From Epilithonimonas zeae (GTDB lineage: Bacteria > Bacteroidota > Bacteroidia > Flavobacteriales > Weeksellaceae): a stretch of DNA of 64,000 nucleotides. Location of the stretch: positions 2,294,001 to 2,358,000 of the forward strand of contig NZ_FSRK01000001.1 in NCBI RefSeq assembly GCF_900141765.1, written 5' to 3'. Position numbers and translations under genes: made by a program. Positions within the stretch are counted from its first letter, which is position 1. Each line of letters starts with the position of its first letter. Below, one piece after another: positions 9,911 through 55,808 of the stretch. The notes under the pieces are model-generated. The model was not told where the DNA came from, did no database searches, and worked only from the letters and a program-made list of their open reading frames with translations.

Positions 9911-10017
9911 CGTAGCCCGACTTGAGCGGAAATCCTTTTTTGCCAAACTTCAAGTTCTATTTAGACTGAAATCGTCCGCAAAAAAGATTTGGAGCGGAAG
10001 GCGGATTAGCTACCCAA
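9911..10017 (+). ncRNA. Structured dispersed element, copy 1 (possible Flavo-1-like RNA)
   Basis: Outer stem TAGC/GCTA (9913-9916 with 10008-10011), inner CCG/CGG with a bulged ATTA on the 3' side, an internal loop carrying GAGCGGAA on both strands, then a second stem ATCcTTTTTTGC/GCAAAAAAGAT. It lies just 3' of the stop of the ATPase gene at 10050. The class and strand of transcription are inferred; see the covariation finding. Confidence 0.55.
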
Positions 10018-10049
10018 ACCTAACAAAGTGGTTCGACGGAGTCAAAAAA

Positions 10050-10787
10050 CTATTCTGCTTTTGGAAGTTTTACTAATTCATCTTTGGCAATCAGTCGGTT
10101 TTCTACTTGCTTGTCTTCTTTGATGATTCCGTCTCGCAAAATCACAGTTCGTTTGCTGAATCTCGCAATGTCATCCTCGTGGGTTACGAATCCAATCGTG
10201 ATTCCTTGGTCATTGAGTTCCTGAAAAAGATTCATCACTTCGTAGGACGTTCTGGTGTCGAGATTCCCCGTTGCCTCATCTGCCAAAAGGATTATCGGAT
10301 GATTAACCAAAGCTCTCGCAATCGCAACTCTCTGCTGTTGTCCGCCTGAAAGCTGACTCGGAACGTGTCCCATTCTGCTTTCCAAACCGACCTGTTTCAA
10401 GGCTTTCACAGCGCGCTCCCTTCTCTCTTCCGCCGACACTTTGGAATTGTAGAGCAAAGGCAACTCTACGTTTTCCAGCGCGCTGGTTCTAGCCAATAAA
10501 TTGTATGATTGAAATATGAATCCGATTTTTGTATTCCTGATTTCCGCCAGTTGGTTTTTGTTTAAATCTTTGACCAAAACACCATCGAGTTCGTAAGTTC
10601 CCGAAGTTGGCTGGTCGAGACATCCCAAAACATTGAGGAATGTTGATTTTCCCGAACCACTGGTTCCCATAATCGTCACAAATTCACCTTCGTTGATAGT
10701 CAAATCGATGCCTTTCAAAGCGTGAACGATTTCGTCGCCCATTTTGAATTCGCGTTTCAGGTTTTCTATTTTGATAATGGGTTTCAT
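10050..10787 (-). CDS. MacB-type ABC transporter ATP-binding protein
   Basis: The 245-residue ATPase of the LolD/MacB group has Walker A GTSGSGKST at 41-49, a Q-loop (FQSYNLL) near 92, signature LSGGQ at 146-150 and Walker B ILLADE at 166-171 followed by the D-loop ATGNLD. It should power the permease encoded at 8170 together with the adaptor at 10924 and TolC-like channel at 12203. It lacks any fused membrane domain. The gap to the adaptor gene (136 bp) holds a 14-bp inverted repeat. Confidence 0.95.
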   Translation of the reverse strand: MKPIIKIENLKREFKMGDEIVHALKGIDLTINEGEFVTIMGTSGSGKSTFLNVLGCLDQPTSGTYELDGVLVKDLNKNQLAEIRNTKIGFIFQSYNLLARTSALENVELPLLYNSKVSAEERRERAVKALKQVGLESRMGHVPSQLSGGQQQRVAIARALVNHPIILLADEATGNLDTRTSYEVMNLFQELNDQGITIGFVTHEDDIARFSKRTVILRDGIIKEDKQVENRLIAKDELVKLPKAE

Positions 10788-10804
10788 TGTAGTTGATTTG
10801 TTGG

Positions 10805-10905
10805 TTAGTTAATTAGTTGTCAGTTTTTTAGTTAAATATTTGATTTGTAAAATCGATAAATCGTTGTTTCGTTAATAACTGATTAGCTTAAAACTAATTA
10901 ACTAA
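10805..10905. repeat. Inverted repeat between adaptor and ATPase genes
   Basis: TTAGTTAATTAGTT at 10805-10818 is perfectly complementary to AACTAATTAACTAA at 10892-10905, with 73 nt between. The whole gap is built from GTTAAT/AACTAA-like text. It could form a large AT hairpin in the operon transcript. Confidence 0.6.
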
Positions 10906-10923
10906 ATAACTGAATACTAAATT

Positions 10924-12177
10924 TTAATTCGGTGGACCTTGGCTTGAACTTGATTTTTTGTTGTTATTATTTGGTCTTTTCGGCATAAATGGACTGCTTC
11001 CGTCTCCGCTCGATTTTGTAATAGGTTCTGTCTGCTCGTCAAGTGAGGTTACGATTTGTTCGTTTCCTGAAAGTCCGTTGACCACCTGAATATTGATTCC
11101 GTCATTAATTCCGATTGTGATTTGTTTCTGGGAAAGACTTCCGTCGTTATTTTTAATCCAAATATATTTTTCCTTGTTTTTTCCGGTTTTGATTTCGGGA
11201 ATTTTTGCCGTGATTTGATTTTGCTGATAATATTTCTGCAAAGTTTCCGTATCAGGAGTGAAAGCGATTGCCGAAGCCGGAATTGTATTGGTATCTTTTA
11301 ATTCCTGAGTGAAAATTGTGATGGTTGCTGTCAAACTTGGTTTCAGTTTTTGTTCAGGATTATCGGCATCGATGATGACGGTGTAAGTCACAACATTGGA
11401 TTCTGTAGTTGCGGACAAACGAACCTGACGAACTCGACCACTGAAATCTTCCTGAGGATAGGCATCCACCGTGAAACTCACACGCTGACCAACTTCTACT
11501 CCACCAATATCTGCTTCATCCACATCCGCTTCCACCTGCATTTTGGTAATATCTTTTGCAATGGTGAAAAGCGTTGGCGTTGTCATACTTGCCTGTACAG
11601 TTTGCCCTTCTTCCACTTCTCTACTCAAAATAATGCCGTCAATCGGAGCATAAATATTGGCATAACTCAAATTGGTTCTCGCCTGCGCCAAAGCTGTTTT
11701 TCTCTGACTTACGGTTTCCTGAGAGTTCTTAACCTGATAAAAAGCCTGCTCGTAATCTGCCTTGCTAATCACTCCGGATTTGAACATATTACTTTGACGA
11801 TTAAAGTTTTGCTGGTAATAATTTAGTTCGTTTAGTGATGCGTTATATTGCGCTAAAGCATTGTTCACAGATTCCTGAAGATTGGTTTTGTCCAATTCTG
11901 CCAAAAGCTGACCTTTTTTAACCTGAGAATTATAATCAACATAAATATTATTGATGATTCCCGAAACCTGCGTTCCCACATCTACTTGGTCAACAGGTTC
12001 TACAGTTCCGGTTGCAGTAACCGAAGTTGTAACATTCTGCTTTGTTAATTTTACCGTTTGAACCGCAATATTGCTCGTTTTTTCTGTTGTAAAATATTTA
12101 TAAACGAAGAAAATAACAATCGCTGAAACAAGAACGATAATAGAATTTTTGAAGTATTTTTTATATTTTGGATTCAT
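10924..12177 (-). CDS. Periplasmic adaptor (membrane fusion) subunit, HlyD/MacA type
   Basis: The 417-residue protein has an N-terminal anchor helix at about 10-27, paired barrel-sandwich (lipoyl-like) segments (VTATGTVEPVDQVDVGTQ and YANIYAPIDGIILSREVEEG), an intervening coiled coil at about 95-165, and a beta-barrel domain. The C-terminus is a Ser/Asn/Lys-rich tail. It bridges the inner-membrane ABC pump and the TolC-like channel. It starts 25 bp after the channel gene's stop. A Pro/Asn/Ser-rich last 35 residues are probably disordered. Confidence 0.93.
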   Translation of the reverse strand: MNPKYKKYFKNSIIVLVSAIVIFFVYKYFTTEKTSNIAVQTVKLTKQNVTTSVTATGTVEPVDQVDVGTQVSGIINNIYVDYNSQVKKGQLLAELDKTNLQESVNNALAQYNASLNELNYYQQNFNRQSNMFKSGVISKADYEQAFYQVKNSQETVSQRKTALAQARTNLSYANIYAPIDGIILSREVEEGQTVQASMTTPTLFTIAKDITKMQVEADVDEADIGGVEVGQRVSFTVDAYPQEDFSGRVRQVRLSATTESNVVTYTVIIDADNPEQKLKPSLTATITIFTQELKDTNTIPASAIAFTPDTETLQKYYQQNQITAKIPEIKTGKNKEKYIWIKNNDGSLSQKQITIGINDGINIQVVNGLSGNEQIVTSLDEQTEPITKSSGDGSSPFMPKRPNNNNKKSSSSQGPPN

Positions 12178-12202
12178 AATCTTGATGTTTTTCCTGTTAT
12201 TT

Positions 12203-13507
12203 TTAATTGGCAGTTAATGCTTTTCCTTGATAGAAATTCAGCAGTTGAGTGTACAAAACCGACATATATTTTGATTGAAGGTAAGTTTGTTCATTCGTCA
12301 AATAAGTGTTTCTGCTAACGGCCAATTCCGTTGTTGTCAAACCTCCGAATTCATATTTTTTACTGGCTAAATCATAAGCGAGCTTTGCATTGTCTCTCGC
12401 CACTTTCGATGATTTTTGCTGAGCTTGATTGGCGATTGCGTTCTGCCAAGCGGTTTCGATGGATGAATACAAAGTCTTGCTTGCACTTATTTTATCGAGT
12501 TTATTTTGTTCGATATCGATTTGAGCTAATTTGACATTCGTATCGTTTTGCTTTTTCGAGAAAATCGGGACATTCAGAGACAAGCCAACCGACTTGTTGA
12601 AATTGTTTTTAAACTGATTGAAATAGCTGTAATCTTGAGTGCTCGTAAAACCTGTATTCAAACCTGCAGCGGCAGAAAGTGTCGGTTTGTAACCAGCTTT
12701 CGTAATTTGAAGTGCTTTTGCAAGAATCTCGTTCTGAGAATCATAAATTTTCAAATCAGGAAGATTTTCGATTGCTTGAGCAAAAACTTGTTGTTTATCC
12801 GGAATGGATTCCATTAAATCGGTCAGTTTTATCTTTTCGATTTGAAAATCAATACTTGGGTCAAGTTCCAATAATTGTTTTAGTTTCAAAACCTGCTGAT
12901 TGTAAAGGTTTTCGCTGTTCACAACCGTGTATTGATTCTGCGCATCCTGAGTTTCAACATCCGCCAAATCCAATTTTGAAATCGCTCCGTTTTTAAATTT
13001 GGTCTGAGTTAATTTCAATTCCTGAGCGGAAGAACTTGCTGTATATTTTGCACTTTCGATGCCTTCATAATAATATAAAGCCTGCAAATAAGCATTCAGA
13101 ACGTTCAAAACGATATTATTTTCAGCTTGTTTTTGATATAATGAAGACTGGTCGAGAATCATTTTGTTCTGTTCGATTTGAAGATTCAGTTTATTTCCTT
13201 GATAAATTGTCATATTTCCACTTAAACCGAAACTATTTGACAAAATATTCTGATTCACAAATGAACTCGTAATCGGGTCGATACTGGAACCATTCGTCAA
13301 ACCCAAAGAAGTTGTCCCATAAATTGTCGGAAGTTTGTTGTTCTTCTGCTGTTGATAATTCAACGATGCGGTCGTCTTGTCCAAAACCGTTTTCTTTACG
13401 GTAATGTTGTTTTGTACAGCGTAATCAAGACAATCCTCAAGTGTCCAGACTTTTTGAGCCGGAGCAAGGATTCCGATGAAAAGCAATATGATGATATATT
13501 TTCGCAT
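12203..13507 (-). CDS. TolC-family outer membrane efflux protein
   Basis: The 434-residue protein has a signal peptide (MRKYIIILLFIGILAPAQ) and two related OEP repeats rich in Gln/Asn and long helices (LDYAVQNNITVKK; LDLADVETQDAQNQYT; AKLAYDLASKKYEFGGLTTTEL). This is the layout of trimeric outer-membrane channels. It is the promoter-proximal gene of the leftward export operon and diverges from the dehydrogenase gene at 13736 across a 228-bp gap. Substrate is unknown. Confidence 0.93.
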   Translation of the reverse strand: MRKYIIILLFIGILAPAQKVWTLEDCLDYAVQNNITVKKTVLDKTTASLNYQQQKNNKLPTIYGTTSLGLTNGSSIDPITSSFVNQNILSNSFGLSGNMTIYQGNKLNLQIEQNKMILDQSSLYQKQAENNIVLNVLNAYLQALYYYEGIESAKYTASSSAQELKLTQTKFKNGAISKLDLADVETQDAQNQYTVVNSENLYNQQVLKLKQLLELDPSIDFQIEKIKLTDLMESIPDKQQVFAQAIENLPDLKIYDSQNEILAKALQITKAGYKPTLSAAAGLNTGFTSTQDYSYFNQFKNNFNKSVGLSLNVPIFSKKQNDTNVKLAQIDIEQNKLDKISASKTLYSSIETAWQNAIANQAQQKSSKVARDNAKLAYDLASKKYEFGGLTTTELAVSRNTYLTNEQTYLQSKYMSVLYTQLLNFYQGKALTAN

Positions 13508-13735
13508 TGTTCGTCTGTTTTACGGGAACAAAGTTGTCTCATATAGAAAATAATATCAAATCTAATAGACTAACTGAGGGATTTTATAGAAGAAAGTCAA
13601 GATTGTTTCGATAAGAAATTTCATCATTGATTCAGTATGAAACATTTAAGAAATAATTAACTGTCAGAGACATTTGCTTTGCATCATTTTTGCTTTAAAT
13701 AAGGCATCAATAAACAAATTAAAATTTCATTTATT

Positions 13736-14485
13736 ATGAAAATTCTAGACAATAAAGTAGCTTTGGTTACAGGCGCAGGTTCAGGAATTGGACTTGCCAT
13801 CGCAAAATTATACGCTAAAGAAGGCGCAAAAGTTGTGGTTTCCGACATCAATGAAGAACACGGAAAATCAGCTGTTGAAGAAATCAAATCGGAAGGTGGA
13901 GAAGCGACTTTTGTAAAAGCAGACACATCAAATCCAGAGCAAGTTGAAGCCTTAATAAAAGCAACAGTTGACGCCTACGGAAGATTGGACATCGCCTGCA
14001 ATAATGCGGGAATCGGTGGCGAGCAAAAACTAACAGGAGATTACAGCATCGACAGTTGGAAAAAAGTTCTTGACGTGAATCTTGACGGTGTTTTCTACGG
14101 CTGTAAATATGAATTAACTCAAATGGAGAAAAACGGAGGCGGCATTATCGTCAACATCGCATCTATCCACGGAACAGTAGCCGCGCCACTTTCTTCGGCT
14201 TACACAACTTCAAAACACGCAGTTGTCGGATTAACCAAAAATATCGGTGCGGAATATGGACAGAAAAATATCCGTTGTAATGCAGTTGGTCCAGCTTATA
14301 TCGAAACGCCACTTTTGGAAAGTGCAAGTGGCGATATGAAAGAAGCATTAATAGCTAAACATCCAATGGGAAGATTAGGAAGACCTGAGGAAGTTGCAGA
14401 ATTGGTTCTTTTCCTAAGTTCTGATAAATCTTCTTTTATGACTGGCGGTTATTATCTTGTTGATGGTGGTTATACGGCGGTTTAA
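13736..14485 (+). CDS. Short-chain dehydrogenase/reductase
   Basis: This classical 249-residue SDR has the cofactor motif TGAGSGIG at 12-19, NNAG at 88-91, catalytic S142, and Y155-x3-K159 (YTTSK). D36 after the second strand (VSDINEE) suggests NAD preference. Substrate is not determinable. It is monocistronic, with a strong terminator at 14510-14539, and divergent from the export operon. Confidence 0.93.
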   Translation: MKILDNKVALVTGAGSGIGLAIAKLYAKEGAKVVVSDINEEHGKSAVEEIKSEGGEATFVKADTSNPEQVEALIKATVDAYGRLDIACNNAGIGGEQKLTGDYSIDSWKKVLDVNLDGVFYGCKYELTQMEKNGGGIIVNIASIHGTVAAPLSSAYTTSKHAVVGLTKNIGAEYGQKNIRCNAVGPAYIETPLLESASGDMKEALIAKHPMGRLGRPEEVAELVLFLSSDKSSFMTGGYYLVDGGYTAV

Positions 14486-14509
14486 GATTTAGACAAATAA
14501 AAATATTAG

Positions 14510-14539
14510 AAGCATTCATTAAAAGTGAATGCTTTTTTT
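14510..14539 (+). terminator. Intrinsic terminator after the SDR gene
   Basis: AAGCATTCA and TGAATGCTT form a 9-bp stem with a 7-nt loop, followed by a run of T. Confidence 0.9.
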
Positions 14540-14566
14540 ATGATATTTACAAAACAATCTTAACCT

Positions 14567-16132
14567 ATGAAAAATCAAATCATAACATTTACTCTATTTT
14601 CTACTTCTTTTTTTCAAGTAGCCTTTGCCCAGATTTCTCCAAGAAAAATTGATTCTTTGATGGAAAAATCAATGAAAGAATTCAATGTTGTAGGTGCTTC
14701 TATTGCTGTTATCGAAAACGGAAAAATTGTTCTTGAAAAAGGTTACGGGATGAAATCTCTAACTACAAAAGAACCTGTAAATCAATTTACCAATTTCCAG
14801 ATTGCTTCTAATAGTAAGGCTTTTACGACTGCCGCACTTTCTATTTTGGTAGATGAAGGAAAAATAAAATGGGATGACAAGGTCACAAAATACATTCCTG
14901 AGTTCAAAATGTATAATAATTACGTCACTGAAAATTTTATTATTGAAGACCTTTTGTGCCACAGAAGCGGACTCGGAATGGGAGCCGGCGATTTGATGGA
15001 ATTTCCTGCGGGAAGCGATTTTGGGATTAATGACGTTATTACAAACTTACAGCATTTCAAACCCGTTTCGCCGTTTAGAACTAAGTGGGATTATGACAAT
15101 CAGTTATATTTTGTTGCAGGAGAATTGATTAAAAGAGTTAGCGGAATGTCTTGGGAAGATTTTATACAAACGAGAATTTTTCAACCTTTACAAATGACGA
15201 ATTCTTATCCTGCCAATTCTTATATCAAAGACTTTTCAAATATTGCAACACCCCATATTGTTAATTTAAAAGAGAAAACAACTGTTCCTCTTTATGATTT
15301 TGGTAGTAAGATGAACGGTGCTGCCGGAAGCATTTTTTCTAATGTAAATGATATGGCAAAATGGGTTCAGCTCCAGTTGAATGGTGGAAAATATGGCGAA
15401 AAATCCGATAAAACACTATTTACAAAAGACCGTCAAAACGAGATGTGGAAAATCCATACTGTAATGGATTCTCATTTCGAAGAACGTTACAAAACACATT
15501 TTTCAGGTTATGGATTAGGTTTCGATTTATCCGATATGAACGGAAGTTTTGTAGTAGAACATACGGGAGGATTGGATGGAATGTTGTCAATTGTGAGAAT
15601 GATTCCTGATAAAAAATTCGGGATTATTGTTCTTACTAATACGCAAGATGGTGGAATCTACCTAGATTATGCCGTTGCAAATATACTAACCGATTATATT
15701 CTGAATGTGCCTAAAGAAGACTGGATTTCAAAATATTCTGCGAGATTCAAAAACCGTTTAAAAGAAGGAGATGCAATTACTGATAAAGTTTGGAAAACTG
15801 TAGCTGATAACAAAAATGTGAAAATAAAAAATGAAGATTATATCGGAATCTATGAAGATAAATGGTTTGGAAAATGTGAGGTTTTTATGAAAGATAATCA
15901 ACTATGGTTCAAGTCTTATCGTTCTCCAAAACTTAATGGCCCGATGAAATTCTATAAAGCTAACACCTTCGCCATCCAATGGGAATATAGAGGTTTTGAC
16001 GCCGATGCCTTCGCCATTTTCACATTGGATGAAGAAGGAAAAGGACAAAGTATAAAAATGAAAGGCATCTCTCCGAATATCGATTTTAGTTTTGATTTTC
16101 AGGATTTGGATTTACAAAGATTATCCAAGTAA
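14567..16132 (+). CDS. Serine hydrolase, beta-lactamase class C/PBP fold
   Basis: The 521-residue secreted protein has a signal peptide ending at AFAQ (residue 22), the SxxK motif S81-N-S-K84, a YxN motif Y176-D-N178 and the third motif HTGG in the second half. Residues from about 385 form a C-terminal DUF3471-like domain. Enzymes of this family are D-aminopeptidases, esterases or of unknown substrate; resistance activity should not be assumed. It starts after a terminator and is alone. Confidence 0.9.
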   Translation: MKNQIITFTLFSTSFFQVAFAQISPRKIDSLMEKSMKEFNVVGASIAVIENGKIVLEKGYGMKSLTTKEPVNQFTNFQIASNSKAFTTAALSILVDEGKIKWDDKVTKYIPEFKMYNNYVTENFIIEDLLCHRSGLGMGAGDLMEFPAGSDFGINDVITNLQHFKPVSPFRTKWDYDNQLYFVAGELIKRVSGMSWEDFIQTRIFQPLQMTNSYPANSYIKDFSNIATPHIVNLKEKTTVPLYDFGSKMNGAAGSIFSNVNDMAKWVQLQLNGGKYGEKSDKTLFTKDRQNEMWKIHTVMDSHFEERYKTHFSGYGLGFDLSDMNGSFVVEHTGGLDGMLSIVRMIPDKKFGIIVLTNTQDGGIYLDYAVANILTDYILNVPKEDWISKYSARFKNRLKEGDAITDKVWKTVADNKNVKIKNEDYIGIYEDKWFGKCEVFMKDNQLWFKSYRSPKLNGPMKFYKANTFAIQWEYRGFDADAFAIFTLDEEGKGQSIKMKGISPNIDFSFDFQDLDLQRLSK

Positions 16133-16206
16133 AATAAGAATGAAAAAAATAATAGATGTTAGTAACTTAATTAATATATTTCAATAGAAAACTGACTCAT
16201 TTTTAA

Positions 16207-16214
16207 TAAATTTG
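16207..16214 (+). promoter_or_regulatory. Bacteroidota -7 box for thyA
   Basis: TAAATTTG, an exact TAnnTTTG match, lies 22 bp before the thyA ATG, giving a very short leader. Confidence 0.6.
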
Positions 16215-16236
16215 ACTCTTCAATTAAGAATTCAAA

Positions 16237-17031
16237 ATGCAAAACTACCTTGATTTACTTCAGCATATTTTAGACAACGGAACCGATAAAACCGACAGAA
16301 CAGGAACGGGAACACGAAGCGTTTTCGGTTACCAATTACGTTATGATTTGTCGAAAGGATTTCCTTTGGTTACTACAAAGAAAGTGCATTTGAAATCTAT
16401 TATTTATGAATTGCTTTGGTTTATTAAAGGTGATACGAATACGAAATATCTGACTGATAATGGGGTTTCAATTTGGAATGAATGGGCGGATGAAAATGGA
16501 GATTTAGGTCCAGTTTACGGCGCACAATGGAGAAGTTGGAGCGGAGCCGATGGAAAAGTGGTTGACCAGTTTTCTGAAGTAATTGAACAAATCAAAAAAA
16601 ATCCAGATTCCCGCAGATTAATAGTTTCCGCTTGGAACGCCGCAGAAATTCCTAATATGGCTTTGGCACCTTGTCACGCTTTGTTTCAGTTTTATGTGGC
16701 AGATGGAAAATTGTCGCTTCAGTTATATCAAAGAAGTGCGGATGTTTTCCTAGGAGTTCCTTTCAACATTGCGAGTTATGCGCTTTTATTGATGATGGTT
16801 GCGCAAGTTACTGGACTTGAAGTTGGAGATTATGTTCACACTTTTGGTGATGTCCATATTTATAACAATCATTTTGAGCAAGTCAACAGACAGCTTTCCC
16901 GAGAAACAAGACCTTTACCAACAATGAAACTGAATCCTGATATCAAAGATATTTTTGATTTTGATTTTGAAGATTTTACTTTGGAAAATTATGACCCGCA
17001 TCCGGGGATTAAAGCACCAGTGGCGATATAA
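16237..17031 (+). CDS. thyA: Thymidylate synthase
   Basis: The 264-residue protein is the same size as Escherichia coli ThyA and converts dUMP to dTMP with methylene-tetrahydrofolate. The active-site Cys is C146 in [12 protein letters not shown]; the phosphate-binding arginine segment (RTGTGTRS) is at 21-28 and [10 protein letters not shown] at 125-134. The C-terminus ends in APVAI, as expected for the family. No dihydrofolate reductase gene is adjacent in this window. Confidence 0.98.
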
Positions 17032-17035
17032 AATT

Positions 17036-17059
17036 AAGTGGGTAATTCCCACTTTTTTT
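17036..17059 (+). terminator. Intrinsic terminator after thyA
   Basis: AGTGGG and CCCACT flank a short loop and are followed by a T run. Confidence 0.85.
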
Positions 17060-17124
17060 GTAACAATCCTCTAAAAATCAAGACTTATAAACTTTAAAAT
17101 AACATCGATTATAAATTCGTAAGA

Positions 17125-20560: not shown

Positions 20561-20570
20561 CATTTATTAA

Positions 20571-27796: not shown

Positions 27797-27865
27797 TAAT
27801 GCAAAGTCCGCAAAGATTTTTTGGACATTATTGAAAATATTTTTAAGGCTCGCGAAGACGTAAAA
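27797..27865 (+). repeat. Dispersed GCAAAGTCCGCAAAG repeat, copy 1
   Basis: GCAAAGTCCGCAAAGATTTTTT...CGCGAAGACG matches text at 37456-37516 and 49105-49165, where it reads CGCAAAGACGCTTCGCTCAG. It appears only in intergenic DNA in this window. Confidence 0.6.
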
Positions 27866-27970
27866 CTTAATGACAAACTGGTTGTTGATTTTGACTTTTT
27901 AATGCTTTTTAATTTTAATCTTTTGACAAATCTTACTATTAATAACAAAACTTGAATCGTTGACGAAACA

Positions 27971-28087
27971 CCTAGCCCCGATGGAAACGGCATCCTTTTT
28001 TATTTTTTATGGACTTCGATTCAATCGAAGTGACAAAACTTGTAAAAAAATAAAAAAGATATAGTGGACAGCGGGATTAAGCTCCTA
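27971..28087 (+). ncRNA. Structured dispersed element, copy 2 (divergent type)
   Basis: AGC/GCT and CCCG/CGGG outer pairs with a bulged ATTAA, left box GGAAACGGCATCC, and inner stem ATCcTTTTTTATTTTTT with AAAAAATAAAAAAGAT. The loop contains a nested 9-bp perfect hairpin ACTTCGATT-c-AATCGAAGT (28013-28031). It ends about 100 bp before the FKBP start. The 27777-28189 gap holds no supported protein gene otherwise. Confidence 0.6.
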
Positions 28088-28140
28088 ATTTATTGCTTTA
28101 TCTTTTCTTATCTCATCAAAGTTACGGGAAATAATTGCAA

Positions 28141-28678: not shown

Positions 28679-28753
28679 CAACCTGTTAATCAACCTCTGA
28701 CGAAGGACGTGAATGTTGCTTAGCTTGACAAAACAAATTTTTTATTATAAAAA
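28679..28753 (+). ncRNA. Possible structured rplS leader
   Basis: The leader can form GTTAA/TTGAC, CAAC/GTTG and an apical CCT/AGG hairpin (CCTCTGACGAAGG). Ribosomal-protein leaders that bind the encoded protein are known for several flavobacterial genes; an L19 type may exist but I cannot verify it. The pairing is read by eye only. Confidence 0.4.
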
Positions 28754-37455: not shown

Positions 37456-37516
37456 GAACGCAAAGTCCGCAAAGATTATTTGAATTGATTGAAACTATTT
37501 AAGATTCGCAAAGACG
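37456..37516 (+). repeat. Dispersed GCAAAGTCCGCAAAG repeat, copy 2
   Basis: GCAAAGTCCGCAAAGATTATTT...CGCAAAGACGCTTCGCTCAG, shared with 27797-27865 and 49105-49165. Confidence 0.6.
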
Positions 37517-37668
37517 CTTCGCTCAGAGAAGAATTAAACGCAAACCTTGTCATTCTGAAAGAATCTAAACGGTTGAGGTTCCTACGGACAAATATTATGA
37601 TTAAGGATATGAAAACCTGGATAGTTGAGAAAATGTCAATTGAAAGACAAATGTTTAAACTTGGCGAA

Positions 37669-37754
37669 GCGCGCCCCGACCTGAGTGGAGCTCTTTTTCT
37701 TTTTTGAGAAAAAAGAAAAAAGCGGGAACGGAGGGCGGATAAAGGCGCCCAAAT
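37669..37754 (+). ncRNA. Structured dispersed element, copy 3
   Basis: Outer stem GCGCC/GGCGC (37671-37675 with 37744-37748), inner CCG/CGG with bulged ATAAA, GAGTGGAG on the left and GGGAACGGA on the right, then inner stem GCTcTTTTTCTTTTTT/AAAAAAGAAAAAaGC. The outer pairs differ from other copies yet remain complementary. Confidence 0.6.
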
Positions 37755-37822
37755 CAAATTCAAGAATTATTTTTTGTAACAAATTTTTGATATCATTACT
37801 AACCGAATAGAGTTAAACAAAA

Positions 37823-47978: not shown

Positions 47979-48009
47979 TCTAGTAATGTTTAAATAGAAA
48001 AACGCATAA

Positions 48010-48087: not shown

Positions 48088-48122
48088 TTTGTGTATTATT
48101 AGTAATCAATATTTAAAAATTA

Positions 48123-49076
48123 TTATTTCCTTTTCATTACTTTTTTTGCGGCTTCAACAATGTCATTGGCGGTCAATCCATATTTTTCCATCAGTTGGTC
48201 TGGAGTTCCGCTTTCTCCGAAGCTGTCGTTTACAGCTACATATTCCTGAGGTGCAAGATATTCTGTAATCAAAAGTTGAGCAACGCTGTCGCCTAAACCG
48301 CCTAATCTGTTGTGTTCTTCGGCAGTTACAACGCAACCTGTTTTCTTTACTGATTTTAAAATTGCTTCAGTATCCAAAGGTTTGATGGTATGGATATTAA
48401 TAATTTCGGCATCAATTCCCTGCTCTTCCAGGATTTCCCCGGCTTTTATCGCTTCCCAAACCAAATGTCCAGTGGCGATTATGGTTACGTCTTTTCCTTC
48501 GTTGACCATCCAGGCTTTCCCTATTTCGAATGTTTGATTTTCGTCTGTAAAAACAGGAATCACAGGTCTTCCGAAACGCAGATAAACCGGACCTTCATAA
48601 TCAGCAATGGCAATTGTTGCCGCTTTGGTCTGGTTGTAATCGCAAGTGTTGATGACTGTCATTCCGGGAAGCATTTTCATTAATCCGATGTCTTCCAGAA
48701 TCTGGTGTGTTGCACCATCTTCACCTAAAGTCAATCCGGCGTGAGAAGCACAGATTTTTACGTTTTTATCAGAATACGCCACGGACTGACGAATCTGGTC
48801 GTACACTCTTCCGGTAGAAAAGTTGGCAAAAGTTCCTGTGAATGGAATTTTTCCTTCAATGGCTAATCCTGCGGCGATTCCAATCATATTGGCTTCGGCA
48901 ATTCCGATCTGGAAAAAACGTTCCGGTACTTTTTCGATGAATTTTTCCATTTTCAAAGAACCGATAAGGTCGGCGCAAAGTGCTACGACATCAGGATTTT
49001 TGTCCGCCAGTTCTGCAAGACCGGCTCCGAAACCACTTCTGGTGTCTTTTTTTTCTGTGTATGTATATTTTTTCAT
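48123..49076 (-). CDS. Transketolase, C-terminal subunit
   Basis: The start at 49076 (MKKYTYTEKKDTRSGFG) gives 317 residues. A longer frame to 49175 runs through a dispersed repeat and is rejected. It has the pyrimidine-binding domain (ERFFQIGIAEANMIGIAAGLA, EDGATHQILEDI) and the C-terminal domain (GHLVWEAIKAGEILEEQGI). It pairs with the N-terminal subunit at 49339. Split transketolases interconvert pentose and hexose phosphates. Confidence 0.93.
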   Translation of the reverse strand: MKKYTYTEKKDTRSGFGAGLAELADKNPDVVALCADLIGSLKMEKFIEKVPERFFQIGIAEANMIGIAAGLAIEGKIPFTGTFANFSTGRVYDQIRQSVAYSDKNVKICASHAGLTLGEDGATHQILEDIGLMKMLPGMTVINTCDYNQTKAATIAIADYEGPVYLRFGRPVIPVFTDENQTFEIGKAWMVNEGKDVTIIATGHLVWEAIKAGEILEEQGIDAEIINIHTIKPLDTEAILKSVKKTGCVVTAEEHNRLGGLGDSVAQLLITEYLAPQEYVAVNDSFGESGTPDQLMEKYGLTANDIVEAAKKVMKRK

Positions 49077-49104
49077 TGTTTTTATCTGTTGATGGTTATT
49101 TAAA

Positions 49105-49165
49105 CGCAAAGAGCGCAAAGATTTTTTTAGCTTATTGGGAATATTTTTCGTTCGCAAAGGCGCTT
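49105..49165 (+). repeat. Dispersed GCAAAGxxCGCAAAG repeat, copy 3
   Basis: CGCAAAGAGCGCAAAGATTTTTTT...CGCAAAGGCGCTTCGCTCAG, as at 27797 and 37456. Confidence 0.6.
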
Positions 49166-49225
49166 CGCTCAGCAAAGGAATTTAATCTTTAGATGTTAGA
49201 TATTTTTTTGAACAGCGAATCGCTC

Positions 49226-49327
49226 GCAGCCCGACTTGAGTGGAGCTCTTTTTGCAAATTCAACAATGGAAAAAGCCTTGGGAATTTGCAAAAAAGCGGG
49301 AGCGGAAGGCGGATAAAGCTGCCCAAA
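49226..49327 (+). ncRNA. Structured dispersed element, copy 4
   Basis: Outer stem GCAGC/GCTGC, CCG/CGG with bulged ATAAA, GAGTGGAG on the left and GGAGCGGAA on the right, inner stem GCTcTTTTTGCAAATTC with GAATTTGCAAAAAaGC. It ends 11 bp from the stop of the transketolase N-terminal gene, splitting the two subunit genes. Confidence 0.6.
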
Positions 49328-49338
49328 TAATTTAAAGT

Positions 49339-50187
49339 CTAATAATCGCCTAAAGTTTCCTCTAACTGGTCTAATGCTTTTGCCAGTTGCTCATCGTTAG
49401 GCGCTTTTCCGTGCCACGCGTGGCTTCCCATCATATAATCGACACCGTGACCCATTCCGGTTTTCAGGAGAATACAAATCGGCTGCCCTTGTCCGGTCAA
49501 TGATTTTGCTTCGTCCAGAACGTTAAGAATTTCTTCCATATCGTTTCCGTTTTCCACTTCGAGAACTTTCCAGTCGAAGGCTTCGAATTTGGTTTTAAGA
49601 TTACCCAAAGAAAGGACTTTTGAAGTCGGGCCATCAATCTGCTGACCATTGTAATCGATGGTTGCAATCAAATTATCAACCTTATTGTGAGAGGCATACA
49701 TTATGGCTTCCCAGTTCTGCCCTTCCTGCAATTCGCCGTCGCCGTGAAGGGTGAACACAAGATTTTTATCTTTATTTATTTTTTTTCCGACTGCGTGACC
49801 AATTGCCACAGACATTCCTTGCCCCAGAGAACCGGAAGCAATACGAACGCCCGGAAGATGCTCGTGCGTGGTGGGATGTCCCTGTAATCTTGAATTCAGT
49901 TTTCTGAAAGTTGCCAGTTCTGACTTATCAAAATAACCTGCGTGCGCCAAAACACTGTAAAAAACAGGCGAAATATGACCGTTGGACAGGTAAAAAACGT
50001 CTTCATCTTTACCCTTCATATCGAATCCTTCTTTTCTTTTCATCGCATCAAAATAAAGAGCGACCAGAAAGTCTGTGCAACCCAACGAACCGCCGGGATG
50101 ACCGGATTGACAGGCGTGAACCATTCTTACAATATCCCTTCTGACCTGCGAAGCGATGTGATTAAGTTTTGAAATATCGTGCTGCAT
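49339..50187 (-). CDS. Transketolase, N-terminal subunit
   Basis: The 282-residue thiamine-diphosphate-binding half has SGHPGGSLGCTDFL, the GDGELQEGQNWEA thiamine motif, and MGHGVDYMMGSHAWHGKAP. Together with 48123 it makes a complete transketolase. It starts 3 bp after the aldolase gene's stop, so all three are probably co-transcribed; the 262-bp gap to the other subunit holds two repeats. Confidence 0.94.
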   Translation of the reverse strand: MQHDISKLNHIASQVRRDIVRMVHACQSGHPGGSLGCTDFLVALYFDAMKRKEGFDMKGKDEDVFYLSNGHISPVFYSVLAHAGYFDKSELATFRKLNSRLQGHPTTHEHLPGVRIASGSLGQGMSVAIGHAVGKKINKDKNLVFTLHGDGELQEGQNWEAIMYASHNKVDNLIATIDYNGQQIDGPTSKVLSLGNLKTKFEAFDWKVLEVENGNDMEEILNVLDEAKSLTGQGQPICILLKTGMGHGVDYMMGSHAWHGKAPNDEQLAKALDQLEETLGDY

Positions 50188-50190
50188 AAA

Positions 50191-50844
50191 TTATTGCATT
50201 TTTTGTGAATCTTTGATGAACTGCTCCAATCCCGAATCTGTCAAGGGATGTTTTAGCAAGGAAAGAATCGGCTGAATCGGACAAGTCACGACATCAGCGC
50301 CGATTTTTGCACAATTGATGATGTGCATACTGTGTCTTACAGAGGCTGCCAAAATTTCTGTTTCGTAACCATAATTATCAAAAATAAGACGGATTTCTTC
50401 AATAAGATTCAAACTGTCTGTTGAAATATCATCCAGTCTTCCCAAAAACGGAGAAACGTAACTCGCACCTGCTTTTGCGGCTAAAAGAGCTTGTCCGGCA
50501 GAGAAAATCAAGGTGCAATTGGTTTTGATTCCTTTGCTGGAAAAATATTTGAGAGCTTTTACACCATCTTTTATCATTGGAATTTTCACAACGATATTTG
50601 GATGAATTGCGGCAAGAATTTCGCCTTCGGCAATCATTTCTTCGTAAGTTGTGGATAAGACTTCCGCAGAAATATCTCCGTCTACAATCTCGCAAATATA
50701 TTTGTAATGTTGCAAGATAGCTTCTGTTCCGCTGATTCCTTCTTTTGCCATCAAGGATGGATTAGTTGTAACGCCATCCAGAATTCCAAGGTCGTTAGCT
50801 TCTCTAATCTGCTCTAAATTGGCAGTGTCGATAAAAAATTTCAT
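50191..50844 (-). CDS. fsa: Fructose-6-phosphate aldolase / transaldolase (TalC/FSA type)
   Basis: The 217-residue class I aldolase resembles the small FSA/TalC group (E. coli FsaA 220). It has [22 protein letters not shown], and the Schiff-base lysine in VVKIPM. In operons with transketolase it normally acts as transaldolase. A candidate operator at 51038 lies upstream of its start. Confidence 0.92.
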
Positions 50845-50910
50845 ATGTAGATTTTTATTTGTTATTAGTTCAGTTATTAGGTTTGATTATTTCATTCCAT
50901 TCAGCACTCT

Positions 50911-50977
50911 TTTGTCATTCCGTAGGAATCTCAACACAGCAAGAATAAAGCAGTTTAGATTCCTACGGAATGACAAA
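50911..50977. repeat. Perfect 21-bp inverted repeat
   Basis: Arms 50911-50931 and 50957-50977 are fully complementary (core TCATTCCGTAGGAATCT). A worn relative is at 37548-37590. It lies in the leader of the aldolase operon. Confidence 0.85.
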
Positions 50978-51037
50978 GGTGTTGTTGAAATTTGATTATA
51001 ATTTATCAAAGTGAATGTTTATATTTTAAATTGTATT

Positions 51038-51060
51038 TTAAGTGTTAAATTTACACTTAA
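51038..51060. promoter_or_regulatory. Candidate operator upstream of fsa, AAGTGT-N7-ACACTT
   Basis: TTAAGTGT and ACACTTAA flank TAAATTT. The same dyad, with one base changed, is at 62090-62108 before the Nudix regulator. A near-consensus TCACTTTG lies 3' of it on the minus strand. Confidence 0.6.
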
Positions 51061-51122
51061 TAAATAAAACAAACAATTTCCTGTCTTAAAAAGATTCAGA
51101 AAGTTGTTGCTTAAATTTTTAT

Positions 51123-53156
51123 TTAATTGTGATGACCCATTGGGAGTTTGATTTTCTTCAAATCTTCCAGTTCGTTCAAGGGTCTTTCGATATCATAAGG
51201 AATCGGCATTTTTGAAAACGTCTGGAAATACAGCAGACACGCATCTTTCCACCAAACGGCATCTTTTGCCTGAATCTTTAATTTTGATTGAACTTCGGTA
51301 AATCTTTTTTCATCAACATAAGGCTGCATTTTGTCCCAGATTTTCTGATAATCTCTGACATTTTTTACACCTGTATCATATTTGTATGATAGTTCTTCCC
51401 ACAAAGTTTTACCGTCTTTCATCTGATAATCCCACGGAACGTGATGAAACCAGAGAATAAGGTTTTCGGGAGTCGTTTTGATATTTCCGTAGATGTCGTT
51501 GAGTGGAGGAAAATATTGTGAAACAGCATTGCTTCCCGTTTTGGTTCTGTCAAAACCTAAACCCTGCGTATTTGCCTGATGATAGTATACCGGTGACCAG
51601 TCTGCTCTCGTACCTTTATAGTCACCCCACGGTTCCGGTCCGTAATGGTGCATTCCGGCAAAAATATGGTGTAAACCAAGTGGCATCATATAATCTACCG
51701 CCGTTTCCCTTGAAGTGAGCATCATTTGTTTTACAGGATTGAGGAATTTTTCGTTGTCAGTGAAGGTCATTTTAATCCATTCGTCGGCAATCTGTTCCGA
51801 AGTCAAATCGTGGTTCCAAGCTAAACGTCCGAAAGCATACCAATTGGCCTGTGCAAAATGATGTCCCGTCCAGTTTTTATCTTCTCCAATATTGGCAACT
51901 GCCGAAATAGCCGAAATTTTTGCAGGTCTTAAAGTTCCGTCTGTAATTTTCGCAATTGTAGAACCTTTTCCGTCAGAATACGTATCACTGTCCAAAGTTT
52001 CCTTGAATAAAGGAGCAAGGTAAACAAGATGATTGGCTTGCCCTAAATATTCCTGAGTAATTTGGAACTCTACCATTTCGGAAGTTTTTTTCAATGCTCC
52101 GAAAAGTGGATTAAAAGCTTCACGAGGCTGAAAATCAACAGGTCCGTTTTTAATCTGAACAATCACATTATCTCTGAATTTCCCGTCTAGCGGAACAAAT
52201 TCCAGATAAGCCTGTTTTGCTCGGTCTTCTTTACTCGGACTGTACACAAACGCTCTCCACATTACAATTCCGCCATAAGGCTTCAAGACATCTGCCATCA
52301 TATTAGCGCCATCAGCGTGCGTTCTTCCGTAATCCTGCGGTCCCGGCTGTCCTTCCGAATTGGCTTTCACTAAAAATCCTCCGAAGTCAGGAATTAATTT
52401 ATAAATTTCTGATGCTTTGTCTTTCCACCATTTTTGAACATCTTTATTTAAAGGATCAGAATTTTCCAATCCGTCCAAAACTTTAGGCGACGAAAAATTG
52501 ACTGATAAATAAACTTTGATTCCGTAAGGTCTGAAAATATCTGCGAGAATTTTTACTTTTTCAAGATAGTCTTTGCGGAGCATATTTGGTGAAGCATTCA
52601 CGTTGTTGAGAACAGTTGCATTAATCCCGATTGAGGCATTTGCTCTAGCATATTCTTCGTATCTCGGAGAAATTGCATTCGGCAAATCTTCCCATTTCCA
52701 AAGCGAATGTCCTGCATAACCACGCTCAATCGTTCCGTCAAGATTATCCCAATGGTTGAGAATTCTGACATCGTAGGAAGGTTTTTCGGTAATATTCAGA
52801 TTTGTTAATCCAGATTTTGTTTGCTGCAAACGTAAAATATGATAAACCCCATACAACAATCCGATTTCTTTTTCGGCAGAAATGACCAGTTTATTCTGAA
52901 CTGATTTTATGGTATAACCGCCTTTCAGATTTTTTAATGATTTGTCGGTTCGAAGTTCAATTTCCTGACCTTGCCAATGATTCATTAATTCTTTTTTGGC
53001 GACATTCAAAGTCGGATTGTTTCCTTTGGAAATAATTTTCTCTGTCGAAATTCCGTTCCTTGCCGGAAACCGAAGCCAAAGCTGACTGCCGTCTTCTGCG
53101 AAAATGGTTAATGGAATCATTAGAAATAATAGGATATACAGTCGGAAATAGCGCAT
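51123..53156 (-). CDS. aguA: GH67 alpha-glucuronidase
   Basis: The 677-residue enzyme removes (4-O-methyl)glucuronic acid from xylo-oligosaccharides. Catalytic residues line up with the family: E268 in KANSEGQPGP, D341 in KNGPVDFQ, E369 in QITQEYLG. A signal peptide (MRYFRLYILLFLMIPLTIFA) predicts export, probably to the periplasm. It is last of the xylan block, 270 bp upstream of the aldolase gene. Confidence 0.95.
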   Translation of the reverse strand: MRYFRLYILLFLMIPLTIFAEDGSQLWLRFPARNGISTEKIISKGNNPTLNVAKKELMNHWQGQEIELRTDKSLKNLKGGYTIKSVQNKLVISAEKEIGLLYGVYHILRLQQTKSGLTNLNITEKPSYDVRILNHWDNLDGTIERGYAGHSLWKWEDLPNAISPRYEEYARANASIGINATVLNNVNASPNMLRKDYLEKVKILADIFRPYGIKVYLSVNFSSPKVLDGLENSDPLNKDVQKWWKDKASEIYKLIPDFGGFLVKANSEGQPGPQDYGRTHADGANMMADVLKPYGGIVMWRAFVYSPSKEDRAKQAYLEFVPLDGKFRDNVIVQIKNGPVDFQPREAFNPLFGALKKTSEMVEFQITQEYLGQANHLVYLAPLFKETLDSDTYSDGKGSTIAKITDGTLRPAKISAISAVANIGEDKNWTGHHFAQANWYAFGRLAWNHDLTSEQIADEWIKMTFTDNEKFLNPVKQMMLTSRETAVDYMMPLGLHHIFAGMHHYGPEPWGDYKGTRADWSPVYYHQANTQGLGFDRTKTGSNAVSQYFPPLNDIYGNIKTTPENLILWFHHVPWDYQMKDGKTLWEELSYKYDTGVKNVRDYQKIWDKMQPYVDEKRFTEVQSKLKIQAKDAVWWKDACLLYFQTFSKMPIPYDIERPLNELEDLKKIKLPMGHHN

Positions 53157-53187
53157 TAGATTTTCTTTTAATTTTTATTTAAATAAG

Positions 53188-53294
53188 TTTTGGCTAAAGC
53201 CAAATTGTATCTCTTCATCTTTAAACGGGCTAAAGCCCGTTCCTATTGATAATAGGATTTCATCCTATCCTTCGTTAAATCGTCCCTTCGGGAC
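53188..53294 (+). repeat. Cluster of four hairpin repeats
   Basis: TTTGGCT-aa-AGCCAAA, ACGGGCT-aa-AGCCCGT (53225-53240), ATAGGAT-ttc-ATCCTAT (53252-53268) and GTCCC-ttc-GGGAC (53282-53294) follow one another with CCTATTGAT between. Confidence 0.75.
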
Positions 53295-53304
53295 TTTTTA
53301 TAGA

Positions 53305-54273
53305 TTATTCTTCTAAACCTTCAATGGTTTTAATTTTACCATCGTTGTCATATTCCAATTCGATTACCTTCATACTTCTGAGCCAGGTTTTTCCTTCACT
53401 CGGAACAGAGTCGTGGAAAAACAGATACCATTTTCCTTTGAATTCAGCAATGCTGTGATGAGTTGTCCATCCAATGACAGGCGTCAGAATTTCTCCCTGA
53501 AAAGTAAAGGGACCATAAGGACTGTCGCCTGTGGCATAACAAATCAAATGCGTATCGCCGGTAGAATATGAGAAATAATATTTGCTGTTGTATTTATGCA
53601 TCCAGGACGCTTCGAAAAAGCGGTGTTTGTCGCCGTGAAGCAATGGATTTCCATTTTCGTCAAGAATTAAAACATCTTTCGGCTCTTCTTCAAACTCCAG
53701 CATATCATCGCTCAATAAAACAACTTTTGAAGGAATTGCCGGTTCGTTATCATTTGGAATTACTGCAGATTCTAAGGCTTTGTTGTTTCTGTAACGCTGC
53801 AATTGTCCACCCCAGATTCCACCAAAATACATATAATGTCTTCCGTTTTCTTCAAAAATACAAGGGTCGATGCTATAACTTCCCAACATCGGATGTTTCT
53901 CCGGAATAAATGGTCCGTAAGGTTTGTCACTTACCGCAACACCGATTCTGAAGATGTCATTTTTATCTTTTAACGGAAAATACATATAATATTTTCCATT
54001 TTTGAATGCCACATCACAATCCCACAATTGCCTTCCCGACCAAGGAATATCTTTTACCGAAAGGACAACACCGTGGTCTGTGATTTCGCCGTTTTCTACA
54101 TCATCCAACGAGAAAACGTGATAATCGTTCATATCGAAATGGTCTCCGTTGTCATTTTCTTCGATGCCGCTTTCACGGTCGTGTGATGGATAAATGTAAA
54201 TTTTGCCTTCAAAAACGTGTACGGACGGGTCTGCCATATAATCTTTCGGGAATAGATATTTTGCTTTTTTCAT
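53305..54273 (-). CDS. GH43 family glycosidase
   Basis: The 322-residue five-bladed propeller enzyme has the general base D15 (MADPSVHVF), pKa-modulating D136 (SIDPCIF) and acid E221 (FFEASW). GH43 enzymes are beta-xylosidases, arabinofuranosidases or related. No signal peptide is present, so it should act in the cytoplasm on imported oligosaccharides. It sits between GH10 and GH67 genes. Confidence 0.93.
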   Translation of the reverse strand: MKKAKYLFPKDYMADPSVHVFEGKIYIYPSHDRESGIEENDNGDHFDMNDYHVFSLDDVENGEITDHGVVLSVKDIPWSGRQLWDCDVAFKNGKYYMYFPLKDKNDIFRIGVAVSDKPYGPFIPEKHPMLGSYSIDPCIFEENGRHYMYFGGIWGGQLQRYRNNKALESAVIPNDNEPAIPSKVVLLSDDMLEFEEEPKDVLILDENGNPLLHGDKHRFFEASWMHKYNSKYYFSYSTGDTHLICYATGDSPYGPFTFQGEILTPVIGWTTHHSIAEFKGKWYLFFHDSVPSEGKTWLRSMKVIELEYDNDGKIKTIEGLEE

Positions 54274-54316
54274 TTTAATTTAGATGTTAAGATAATAGAC
54301 TGATAGATTTTATTTT

Positions 54317-54378
54317 CTCGCAGTTTTTCAGATTATTTAAATAAAAATCTACTTAATTTGCTAAGTCTGCGAGAGAAA
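54317..54378 (+). repeat. Dispersed CTCGCAG...CTGCGAG inverted repeat
   Basis: CTCGCAG at the left faces CTGCGAG at the right with AATCTAC/AATTTGC text between, related to 4969-5012 and 7913-7998. Confidence 0.5.
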
Positions 54379-54447
54379 TATTTTTGTGATTTGCAGATTA
54401 TTTTTTAACCTTATAGGTATTGAAAACCTATAAGGTTTGAAGCTGCA

Positions 54448-55569
54448 TTATTTTTCTTTTGTTAACTGAATGATTTTTTCTACTACAGGTTTTGCCTGAT
54501 TATTCCGGTCGAAAAGTAACGGATAATCGGTTCTGCCTTTTACCGGAAAATCGTTTTTCCAGGATTGTGCATCAGTAGTTCCCCACAAGGTTACTCTTCT
54601 GATTTTATCCTGATGTTTCAGGAATAATCTGAAAAAATCCAGATAACGGTTTTCCCATTCTGTTTTTACATTTTCGGGAAGTCCGGCCGTATAAGGATTC
54701 ATTTTTGCTTCATATTCTACTTTATCGGAAACGTTGGCAGAAGTTCCCCAAGGAGAAGGAAGTGCGCTGATTTCCATTTCAGTAATATTTACTTTTACGC
54801 CGTTTGCTGTGTAGTCAAGAATTGCTTTTTCGTATTCGTCAAGGGTTGGTGTATCAAGACCAACGTGGGTCTGCATTCCTACTCCATCGATTCGGATTCC
54901 CCTGGATTTTAAAGTCTGAACCATTTTGCTTACAGTTTTAACTTTTCCGGGATGCCATTCGTTATAATCATTGTAATAGAGTTCTGCATTCGGGTCTGCT
55001 TCCTGCGCATATTGGAAAGCCAACGGAATAAATTCTTCGCCAAGGATCTCATAAAATTTACTTTTACGGTAAGTTCCATCTTCCATAATAGCTTCATTAA
55101 CCACATCCCAGCCTTTTACTCGGCCTTTGTATCTGGTAACAACAGTGGTAATATGATTTTTCATTCTTTGTTTTAAAACTTCCGGAGAAACATCTTTTCC
55201 GTCTTTGTCTACGAAAAACCATTTGGGTAACTGCGAATGCCAAATCAAAGTATGACCGATGATGAACATTTTGTTTTTCTCCCCAAAAGCCACAAATTTA
55301 TCGGCATCATCAAAAAAGAACTTTCCTTCCTCCGGCTGCAAAAACATCGATTTCATACAGTTTTCGGCAACAATGGAACTGAACTGATTTTTAATAATTT
55401 CTACAGACCTTACATCTTTCTCATAAATCTGCGGAAGACTCATCGCTGTTCCGATATAGAATTTATTTTTGAATGCATTTTTCAGGGAATCGTTGGAAGT
55501 TGCCGTGTTGGCTGTCTTGCACGAAACAGTTAAGGTTAAAATTCCTAATAATGTTGCTATTTTTTTCAT
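54448..55569 (-). CDS. GH10 endo-1,4-beta-xylanase, lipoprotein
   Basis: The 373-residue enzyme has lipobox Cys C17 (LTVSC), acid/base E159 in WDVVNEA and nucleophile E264 in NITEMEI. Membrane anchoring would hold it at the cell surface or periplasm. It provides xylo-oligosaccharides for the neighbouring GH43 and GH67 enzymes. Confidence 0.95.
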
Positions 55570-55612
55570 AAAATTCTTATTTTCATTTGGCTTTTAGCCG
55601 AAACTTATTATA

Positions 55613-55676
55613 AATTTTGGCTAAAGCCTTTTTCCTTGTCTTGTATTAAACGGGCTAAAGCCCGTTCCTATTGATT
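55613..55676 (+). repeat. Hairpin repeats ACGGGCTAAAGCCCGT type
   Basis: TTTTGGCTAAAGCC and ACGGGCT-aa-AGCCCGT (55650-55665) followed by TCCTATTGAT, as at 53225. Confidence 0.65.
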
Positions 55677-55718
55677 TTCCAATTAATCTTATCACGATTT
55701 TTTGAATACGAATCACTC

Positions 55719-55808
55719 GCAGCCCGGCTTGAACGGAAATCCTTTTTTTGCGGCTGGAAAAACTTTGGCAAAAAAGATTAGGAGTGGAAGACGGAAAAGC
55801 TGCCCAAA
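55719..55808 (+). ncRNA. Structured dispersed element, copy 5
   Basis: Outer stem GCAGC/GCTGC, CCG/CGG with bulged AAAA, GAACGGAA left and GGAGTGGAA right, inner stem ATCcTTTTTTTGC with GCAAAAAAGAT. It ends 14 bp from the stop of the transporter gene at 55823, the same relation as copies 1 and 4. Confidence 0.6.

Follow-up and report, generated by a model that had tools for sequence, protein, structure and literature searches.

Flavo-1 copies in the Epilithonimonas zeae genome as candidate mobile DNA hairpins

Among the repeats closest to the one described here, REPINs have a conserved outer part and a variable inner part, while the integron attC site is an imperfect hairpin of single-stranded DNA with a bulge and a variable tip, recognised by its structure and located past stop codons in one orientation. 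Repetitive extragenic palindromes (REP) and REPINs with RAYT are described, in the available parts of two articles (PMC3116915, PMC3733652), as many dispersed intergenic palindromes near gene ends, and in this respect Flavo-1 is similar. Flavo-1 itself, an RNA family to which no function has been assigned, received its name in 2010, when it was considered a probable structured RNA, and appears as not cis-regulatory in a table in the accessible part of that article (Weinberg et al., PMC2864571); a review, of which a part was likewise accessible, mentions it where the most abundant small RNAs are treated (PMC9029176). Here we describe five Flavo-1 copies in a stretch of 64,000 nt of Epilithonimonas zeae (GCF_900141765.1, contig NZ_FSRK01000001.1, positions 2,294,001 to 2,358,000), hereafter the window, together with their counterparts in the whole genome and in related genomes (labels G and L denote genomes and loci of relatives compared with E. 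zeae). We suggest that Flavo-1 is probably, though far from certainly, a dispersed non-autonomous REP-like mobile DNA hairpin and not a small-RNA gene, the preference for DNA over RNA coming from the position of the copies, their antisense polarity and their half-chromosome bias.

A reading made from the sequence only had proposed for the window five copies of a structured intergenic element, all in the same orientation, with Flavo-1 as a candidate identity. The covariance model R2, built from 44 copies all outside the window, returned these five as the only matches at E values up to 1, all on the + strand. The identity was supported by the cmscan with Rfam 15, where Flavo-1 (RF01705, Rfam type small RNA, or sRNA, gathering cut-off of 42 bits) exceeds the cut-off in copy 2 only, with sub-cut-off matches in three other copies. 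The alignment to the Rfam model spans its positions 1-76 in copies 1, 2 and 5, and 17-62 in copy 3. The five copies are:

9904..10023, + strand: copy 1, type B with AATC core, hairpin at 9912-10013 (R2 110.2 bits; Rfam Flavo-1 40.8 bits at 9910-10011)
27964..28093, + strand: copy 2, type A, the nearest to the Rfam model (Rfam Flavo-1 71 bits at 27970-28082; R2 39.2 bits)
37663..37758, + strand: copy 3, type C with GCTC core, outer stem (P1) GCGCC/GGCGC (R2 93.2 bits; Rfam Flavo-1 24.7 bits at 37684-37732, E = 0.73)
49218..49332, + strand: copy 4, type C core, between the transketolase subunit genes (R2 95 bits; no Rfam Flavo-1 match up to E = 5)
55711..55813, + strand: copy 5, AATC core (R2 93.7 bits; Rfam Flavo-1 34.5 bits at 55717-55801)

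Copy 2 belongs to another subtype than the remaining four, which share with Flavo-1 the plan of stem, mismatch, two-pair stem and 3x3 loop, while types B and C of the window score below the cut-off or escape the Rfam model. The consensus structure is common to Flavo-1 and the window copies, and R2, which contains B and C copies only, also retrieves the type A copy 2. Unlike REP and REPINs, the elements measure about 80-150 nt with G.A loops, are not adjacent to the Y1 genes of the genus and show no link to a Y1 gene in the same genome; instead of the constant GTAG or CGTC end tag, the outer stem of Flavo-1 reads GTAGC in copy 1 and GCAGC, GCGCC or TAGC in others. The likeness to attC may be taken as a mechanical analogy only; the Flavo-1 copies are dispersed.

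In the E. zeae genome (4.08 Mb in 4 contigs), the union of the matches to the Rfam model and to R1, a model built from 13 copies of which four are window copies, amounts to at least 165 copies with no conflict of strand, and this is a lower bound because each search scored 150 candidates. The Rfam model gives at least 113 matches with E <= 0.001, of which 61 exceed the cut-off (best 150 of 1191 candidates), and R1 gives at least 125 (best 150 of 5144 candidates). At least 121 copies are found by R2 in the complete genome of the relative G008 (best 150 of 5486 candidates). At the level of the family, with the best 36 candidates scored per genome, Flavo-1 is present in 96 of 120 genomes, including all 13 that are E. 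zeae's own or of the same genus.

On the + strand, P1 reads GYAGC/GCTRC or GCGCC/GGCGC (AGC/GCT in type A) and is followed by P2, which consists of CCG/CGG and bears an A-rich bulge on its 3' side, and by a single A.G or G.A mismatch. Further inwards come P3 (two pairs), a 3x3 loop of NNA versus GGA, P4 (two pairs), a second purine-rich loop and the core P5, which differs by type (AATC/GATT in B, GCTC/AGC in C, ATC/GAT in A). The innermost part is a T-rich/A-rich stem with a variable tip. In a further type, D, GGGAT/AGCCC replaces CCCGAT/AGCGGG. In copy 1, some of these parts are located as follows:

9912..9916, + strand: 5' strand of the outer stem P1, GTAGC (from the sequence and the RNA fold of the + strand)
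9920, + strand: A of the conserved A.G mismatch, its partner being G10001 (A.G/G.A is kept in 119 of 121 parsed copies)
9926..9927, + strand: 5' strand of the two-pair stem P4, GC, with partner 9994-9995 (two-sided variation)
10005..10008, + strand: A-rich 3' bulge ATTA (from the sequence)
10009..10013, + strand: 3' strand of the outer stem P1, GCTAC (from the sequence and the RNA fold of the + strand)

Most of the plan given by the sequence-only reading is found again: the outer stems are GTAGC/GCTAC, AGC/GCT, GCGCC/GGCGC and, twice, GCAGC/GCTGC, the inner stem is T-rich/A-rich as described, and CCG/CGG and the A-rich 3' bulge occur as well. The GAGCGGAA-like boxes, which it had placed on both strands, are also there, but as direct repeats on one strand, one per arm. 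Its claim of compensatory change holds in the 44 outside copies, where two-sided changes occur in 12 of 22 pairs, with 77 two-sided cells versus 17.3 in shuffles. In this alignment 97.3% of the cells are paired (versus 88.8% when shuffled, and 40-57% when the partners are shifted by 1-3 columns), a value that leans high since the copies were picked among R1 matches and R1 rewards pairing. The larger check of covariation is also strong in 121 of 160 extracted copies, those that the parser could read, the unread 39 resembling type A (15) or type D (12) or being broken or odd (12). For the mismatch, P3 (paired in 120 and 120 copies) and P4 (113 and 112), the shuffle means are 64 to 84 of 121 and none of 2000 shuffles is as high at each, while P2 barely varies. 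Of the folded RNA or DNA hairpin that had been proposed, the folding is sustained by strong covariation and the RNA half is weaker. The A.G/G.A mismatch reads T.C/C.T on the complement, and we take + as the constrained strand because an exchange between A.G and G.A is easiest to understand on the purine strand. The DNA folding energy is slightly better for + than for - in all five window copies, and RNA folding gives mixed results.

The orientation relative to genes was obtained for 158 E. zeae copies, considering length-called open reading frames (ORFs) of at least 80 codons; 5 copies lie inside ORFs and 153 were used. Between co-directional genes, the element is antisense in 76 cases and sense in 22 (p = 4e-8), with antisense to sense ratios of 51:11 in B/C, 14:9 in A and 11:2 in the others; two slightly different subtype rules were used, and type A is 14:10 under the other one. 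The distance from the model end to the stop codon has a median of 9 nt in the 51 antisense B/C cases, and the medians obtained are 9-16 nt. Among 71 motif-located copies there are 46 located cases, and 30 of these have the stop codon 18-36 nt away from CGG, which places it about 8-28 nt beyond the hairpin.

These short distances and the antisense polarity are what could be expected from a cis-acting mRNA 3'-end element, the reverse complement past the stop codon serving as terminator or exonuclease shield, and in copy 4 a GGGCAGC/GCTCCC hairpin followed by a T run is indeed possible on the antisense strand. However, antisense terminator-like hairpins at or below -6 kcal/mol occur in 4 of 98 B/C copies versus 11 of 98 in sense, and an antisense intrinsic terminator was rejected on this energy. 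Considering also that the purine-purine G.A loops lie on the opposite strand, that the polarity of type A is unclear and that copy 4 parts two subunit genes of one enzyme, we regard an mRNA 3'-end element as quite unlikely. The opposite possibility, an RNA of the + strand acting in trans as sRNA or as antisense regulator, follows the Rfam type and agrees with the conserved paired structure, but it is highly improbable for at least 165 dispersed copies which are mostly antisense to their neighbours in the co-directional pairs. In the available part of a study of F. psychrophilum, Flavo-1 matches are sense and antisense to transcribed regions alike and many are outside them (PMC9723704), and copies 1 and 4 had no clear excess of promoters in a sigma-70 scan, where promoters of the Bacteroidetes kind are not covered.

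In G008 (3.94 Mb), the orientation also follows the chromosome. Its 121 orientations divide it into arcs of 1.80 and 2.14 Mb, with 34:13 and 20:54, and none of 500 shuffles gave a split as good. The agreement with the arcs is stronger in the 72 best-scoring copies (57/72) than in the remainder (31/49), and the GC skew is opposite in the two arcs (-0.046 and +0.020). From the best 80 of the 121 matches, 73 contexts were obtained, where co-directional pairs have 39 antisense versus 8 sense elements, with 30:2 for genes on the presumed leading strand and 9:6 for those on the lagging strand. We conclude that replication and transcription both matter to the polarity, with the reservation that the arc was fitted to the same data. 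Either of them alone was discarded as an explanation, since G008 shows both; the E. zeae genome had suggested transcription only. One orientation per half-chromosome, as in G008, together with conserved positions among relatives (see below), is what a domesticated chromosomal site would show, for example one of a nucleoid, replication or recombination protein. Such a site is nevertheless very unlikely, given that the orientation also follows the neighbouring gene, that replication alone predicts mostly sense elements at lagging-strand genes, where 9 antisense and 6 sense are found, and that the sites vary between relatives.

Orthologous copies often differ by nested shells altered on both arms. 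In stretches of 80 kb from five relatives, R1 finds 25 copies, and 22 of them share the site with an E. zeae copy. Two of the others have no match in the E. zeae stretches compared, an absence that is not proven. At the third site, G008 carries a type D copy in an interval of about 300 nt, and the corresponding interval of the window is about 85 nt long and contains no element. Each of the five window copies has a counterpart at its site in G008. At least one module differs in 17 of the 22 shared comparisons. A recount considered 17 comparisons of intact B/C copies from 8 sites, excluding 3 of type A and 2 broken by another repeat, and gave 16 two-sided pair changes, found at 5 of the 8 sites with core changes set aside, and 6 one-sided changes. 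Four of the two-sided changes are one mismatch exchange in copy 4, five of the one-sided changes are a single E. zeae T.G pair in the same copy, and the comparisons share ancestry, so they are not independent.

The E. zeae copy at C1:2364747 has the same 3' flank as its G111 counterpart and differs from it in the mismatch, P3 and P4, each on both sides. Copy 3 differs from G008 in P1, P3, P4 and the core. Among these modules, the differences of copy 5 from G008, G111, G054 and G037 are confined to the core and what lies inside it, its site carrying a GCTC core in these four genomes and in G122. Some orthologues are damaged: at copy 4 a base of P2 is altered in G008 and G122, and another repeat interrupts two copies of G054. 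Short repeats (e.g. GACTTCGTCGAACCACTTCGTTAGG) inserted into Flavo-1 copies were seen at C1:233818, C3:49666, C3:72641, L217:13091-13214 and L215:214-325.

The mutual information across the hairpin is 0.60 bits at the mismatch, 1.66 at P3, 1.01 at P4 and 1.66 at the core; for neighbours on the same arm, a few bases apart, the values are 0.11, 0.42 and 0.47 bits. In 95 B/C copies it is 0.68, 0.77, 0.94 and 1.04 across the hairpin versus 0.04, 0.29 and 0.40 on the same arm, with shuffled values of at most 0.15 for P4. Three families of loops are shared by types A, B and C (in small numbers), which points to other copies as donors. It is conceivable, although we consider it doubtful, that the unit inherited is the hairpin itself, with other copies rewriting the resident ones in nested shells, on both arms together and from the loop outwards, and that most of the covariation which gave Flavo-1 the look of a structured RNA comes from hairpin-centred gene conversion of DNA and not from stepwise compensatory mutation under RNA selection. 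Gene conversion in the evolution of REP is an old idea, reportedly proposed by Higgins in 1988. Hairpin cutting by SbcCD was tried as a trigger for the exchange and rejected, as the genome has no SbcD match and there is no association with copy number. SbcD (TIGR00619) has no match at E <= 0.001 in the E. zeae genome, and 13 of 14 control genomes match, 8 of them above the cut-off; in the family, 44 of 120 genomes are above it, being 15 of the 41 copy-rich ones (at least 20 copies of the 36 candidates scored) versus 29 of the 79 others.

Filled and empty sites could be compared at the transketolase genes around copy 4:

49339..50187, - strand: gene of the transketolase N-terminal subunit, with its stop codon adjoining copy 4 (PF00456)
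48123..49175, - strand: gene of the transketolase C-terminal subunit, on the other side of copy 4 (PF02779, PF02780)

Reading by eye, the element is present at 8 of 13 close loci (E. zeae included) and absent from 5, one genome contributing two loci. An overlapping set was made with named genomes and has 16 loci at 91-97% identity, the closest transketolase being that of Chryseobacterium luteum (97%). R2 finds the element in 8 of these loci, all antisense, and 5 have 11-12 nt between the subunit genes; of the other three, one has a spacer of 187 nt, and for two the pattern search did not locate the next start. The 64 more distant of 80 loci have no match at the transketolase site and one weak match elsewhere (L369). 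In G119, two transketolase N loci (L190 and L203) are more than 90% identical to the query, and the element is present at one of them and absent from the other. A target-site duplication at a fixed distance, as in miniature inverted-repeat transposable elements of DDE transposases, was not seen for Flavo-1.

RAYT, or another Y1 transposase, was also considered as a direct partner and rejected, because none is present in the genome and the Y1 loci of the genus are flanked by palindromes of their own. Among 20 such loci, one has Flavo-1 within the stretch of 2.5-4.4 kb, about 1.9 kb from the gene, and in the nine loci read by eye the genes are flanked by other palindromes. The same observations speak against a REP moved in trans by a Y1 transposase (TnpA-REP/RAYT or IS200-like) that was since lost from the genome, and so does the lack of Y1 in E. 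zeae, G037, G094 and G099, all of them copy-rich. On the other hand, PF01797 (E <= 0.001, weak matches included) is found in 37 of 41 copy-rich genomes versus 38 of 79 others (p = 3e-6) and, outside the genus, in 26 of 28 copy-rich genomes versus the same 38 of 79, and the absent target duplication would fit such a transposase; mobile-element richness or phylogeny could confound the association, and we consider a lost Y1 enzyme unlikely.

As to carriers, BLAST searches with three single copies (copy 4, one B and one A) against plasmids and with one B copy against phages, in which simple repeats were masked, gave no match. No element was found in 16 viral stretches having the 17-base type B pattern, and the type A pattern had no match.

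Other repeats occur near the window copies. At 50911-50979, there is a near-perfect palindrome with CATTCCGTAGGAAT arms, resembling those near the Y1 genes of L163 and L164; it is an orphan REP pair in a genome with no Y1 match. At 55590-55670, GGCTTT(T)AGCC, GGCTAAAGCC and GGGCTAAAGCCC repeats resemble those flanking the Y1 genes of L172 and L173. Copies 2, 3 and 4 each have a CGCAAAGNNCGCAAAG-like repeat on their 5' side, at 27800-27815, 37459-37474 and 49105-49120 (3 versus 0.12 expected, allowing up to 2 mismatches), and this is possibly a second intergenic repeat travelling with Flavo-1. An L19-Flavobacteria ribosomal protein leader (RF03130, 41.5 bits) is found at 28691-28718.

For the mobile DNA hairpin that we favour, the G.A-rich strand would be recognised or processed by some protein as folded single-stranded DNA, and the copies would spread via insertion near gene ends. 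Resident copies may afterwards receive their sequence from other copies through hairpin-centred recombination. Copies whose orientation puts the DNA strand with the stronger folding into the mRNA or onto the lagging-strand template would be lost more often. In the simplest reading, there would be no host benefit beyond that of REP-like repeats, and the polarity would mark where copies are tolerated, namely with this strand kept out of both places.

Several results weigh against this proposal. No mobiliser was found, Y1 transposase (PF01797) having 0 matches in the E. zeae genome. The insertion ends are undefined, because there is no target-site duplication and further repeats are contained in the filled spacers: over 60 x 60 offsets in 121 copies, k-mers of 4-8 nt give no outstanding signal, the best being 7 versus 1.1 expected for 4-mers among the 3600 offsets, and the filled spacers of the named genomes, with 258-608 nt, exceed one element. 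The copies are fairly stable, as 22 of 25 in the relatives share a site with an E. zeae copy. A structure selected as RNA would equally yield covariation, and the pairing counts of the parsed copies are flattered because 39 of 160 were not parsed, including the 12 broken or odd ones. The wobble in P2-P4 is uninformative on which strand folds, since G.T and A.C cells are about equally rare. Concerning the polarity, the convergent and divergent contexts of E. zeae reveal no replication bias (17:16, with 22 undecided, the replichores being guessed from a sparse GC skew), and in those of G008 20 of 26 agree with an arc that was fitted to the same orientations.

In the Flavo-1 literature and the Rfam line, which were accessible in part and with subscription journals mostly uncovered, mobility, polarity and arm exchange were not found. 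Within the same limits, we have not found a previous description of the subfamilies beyond the Rfam model, the filled and empty sites or the mirror-wise mosaic. If Flavo-1 is a mobile DNA hairpin, the sRNA counts and the annotation of Flavobacteriaceae would need correction, and covariation alone would count as weak evidence of an RNA function where repeats are concerned. If the rewriting of resident copies is also true, further families of "structured RNA" found by covariation in repeats could be alike, and the shell-wise exchange would be a natural system for the study of hairpin recombination in bacteria, in a genome with no detectable SbcD match.

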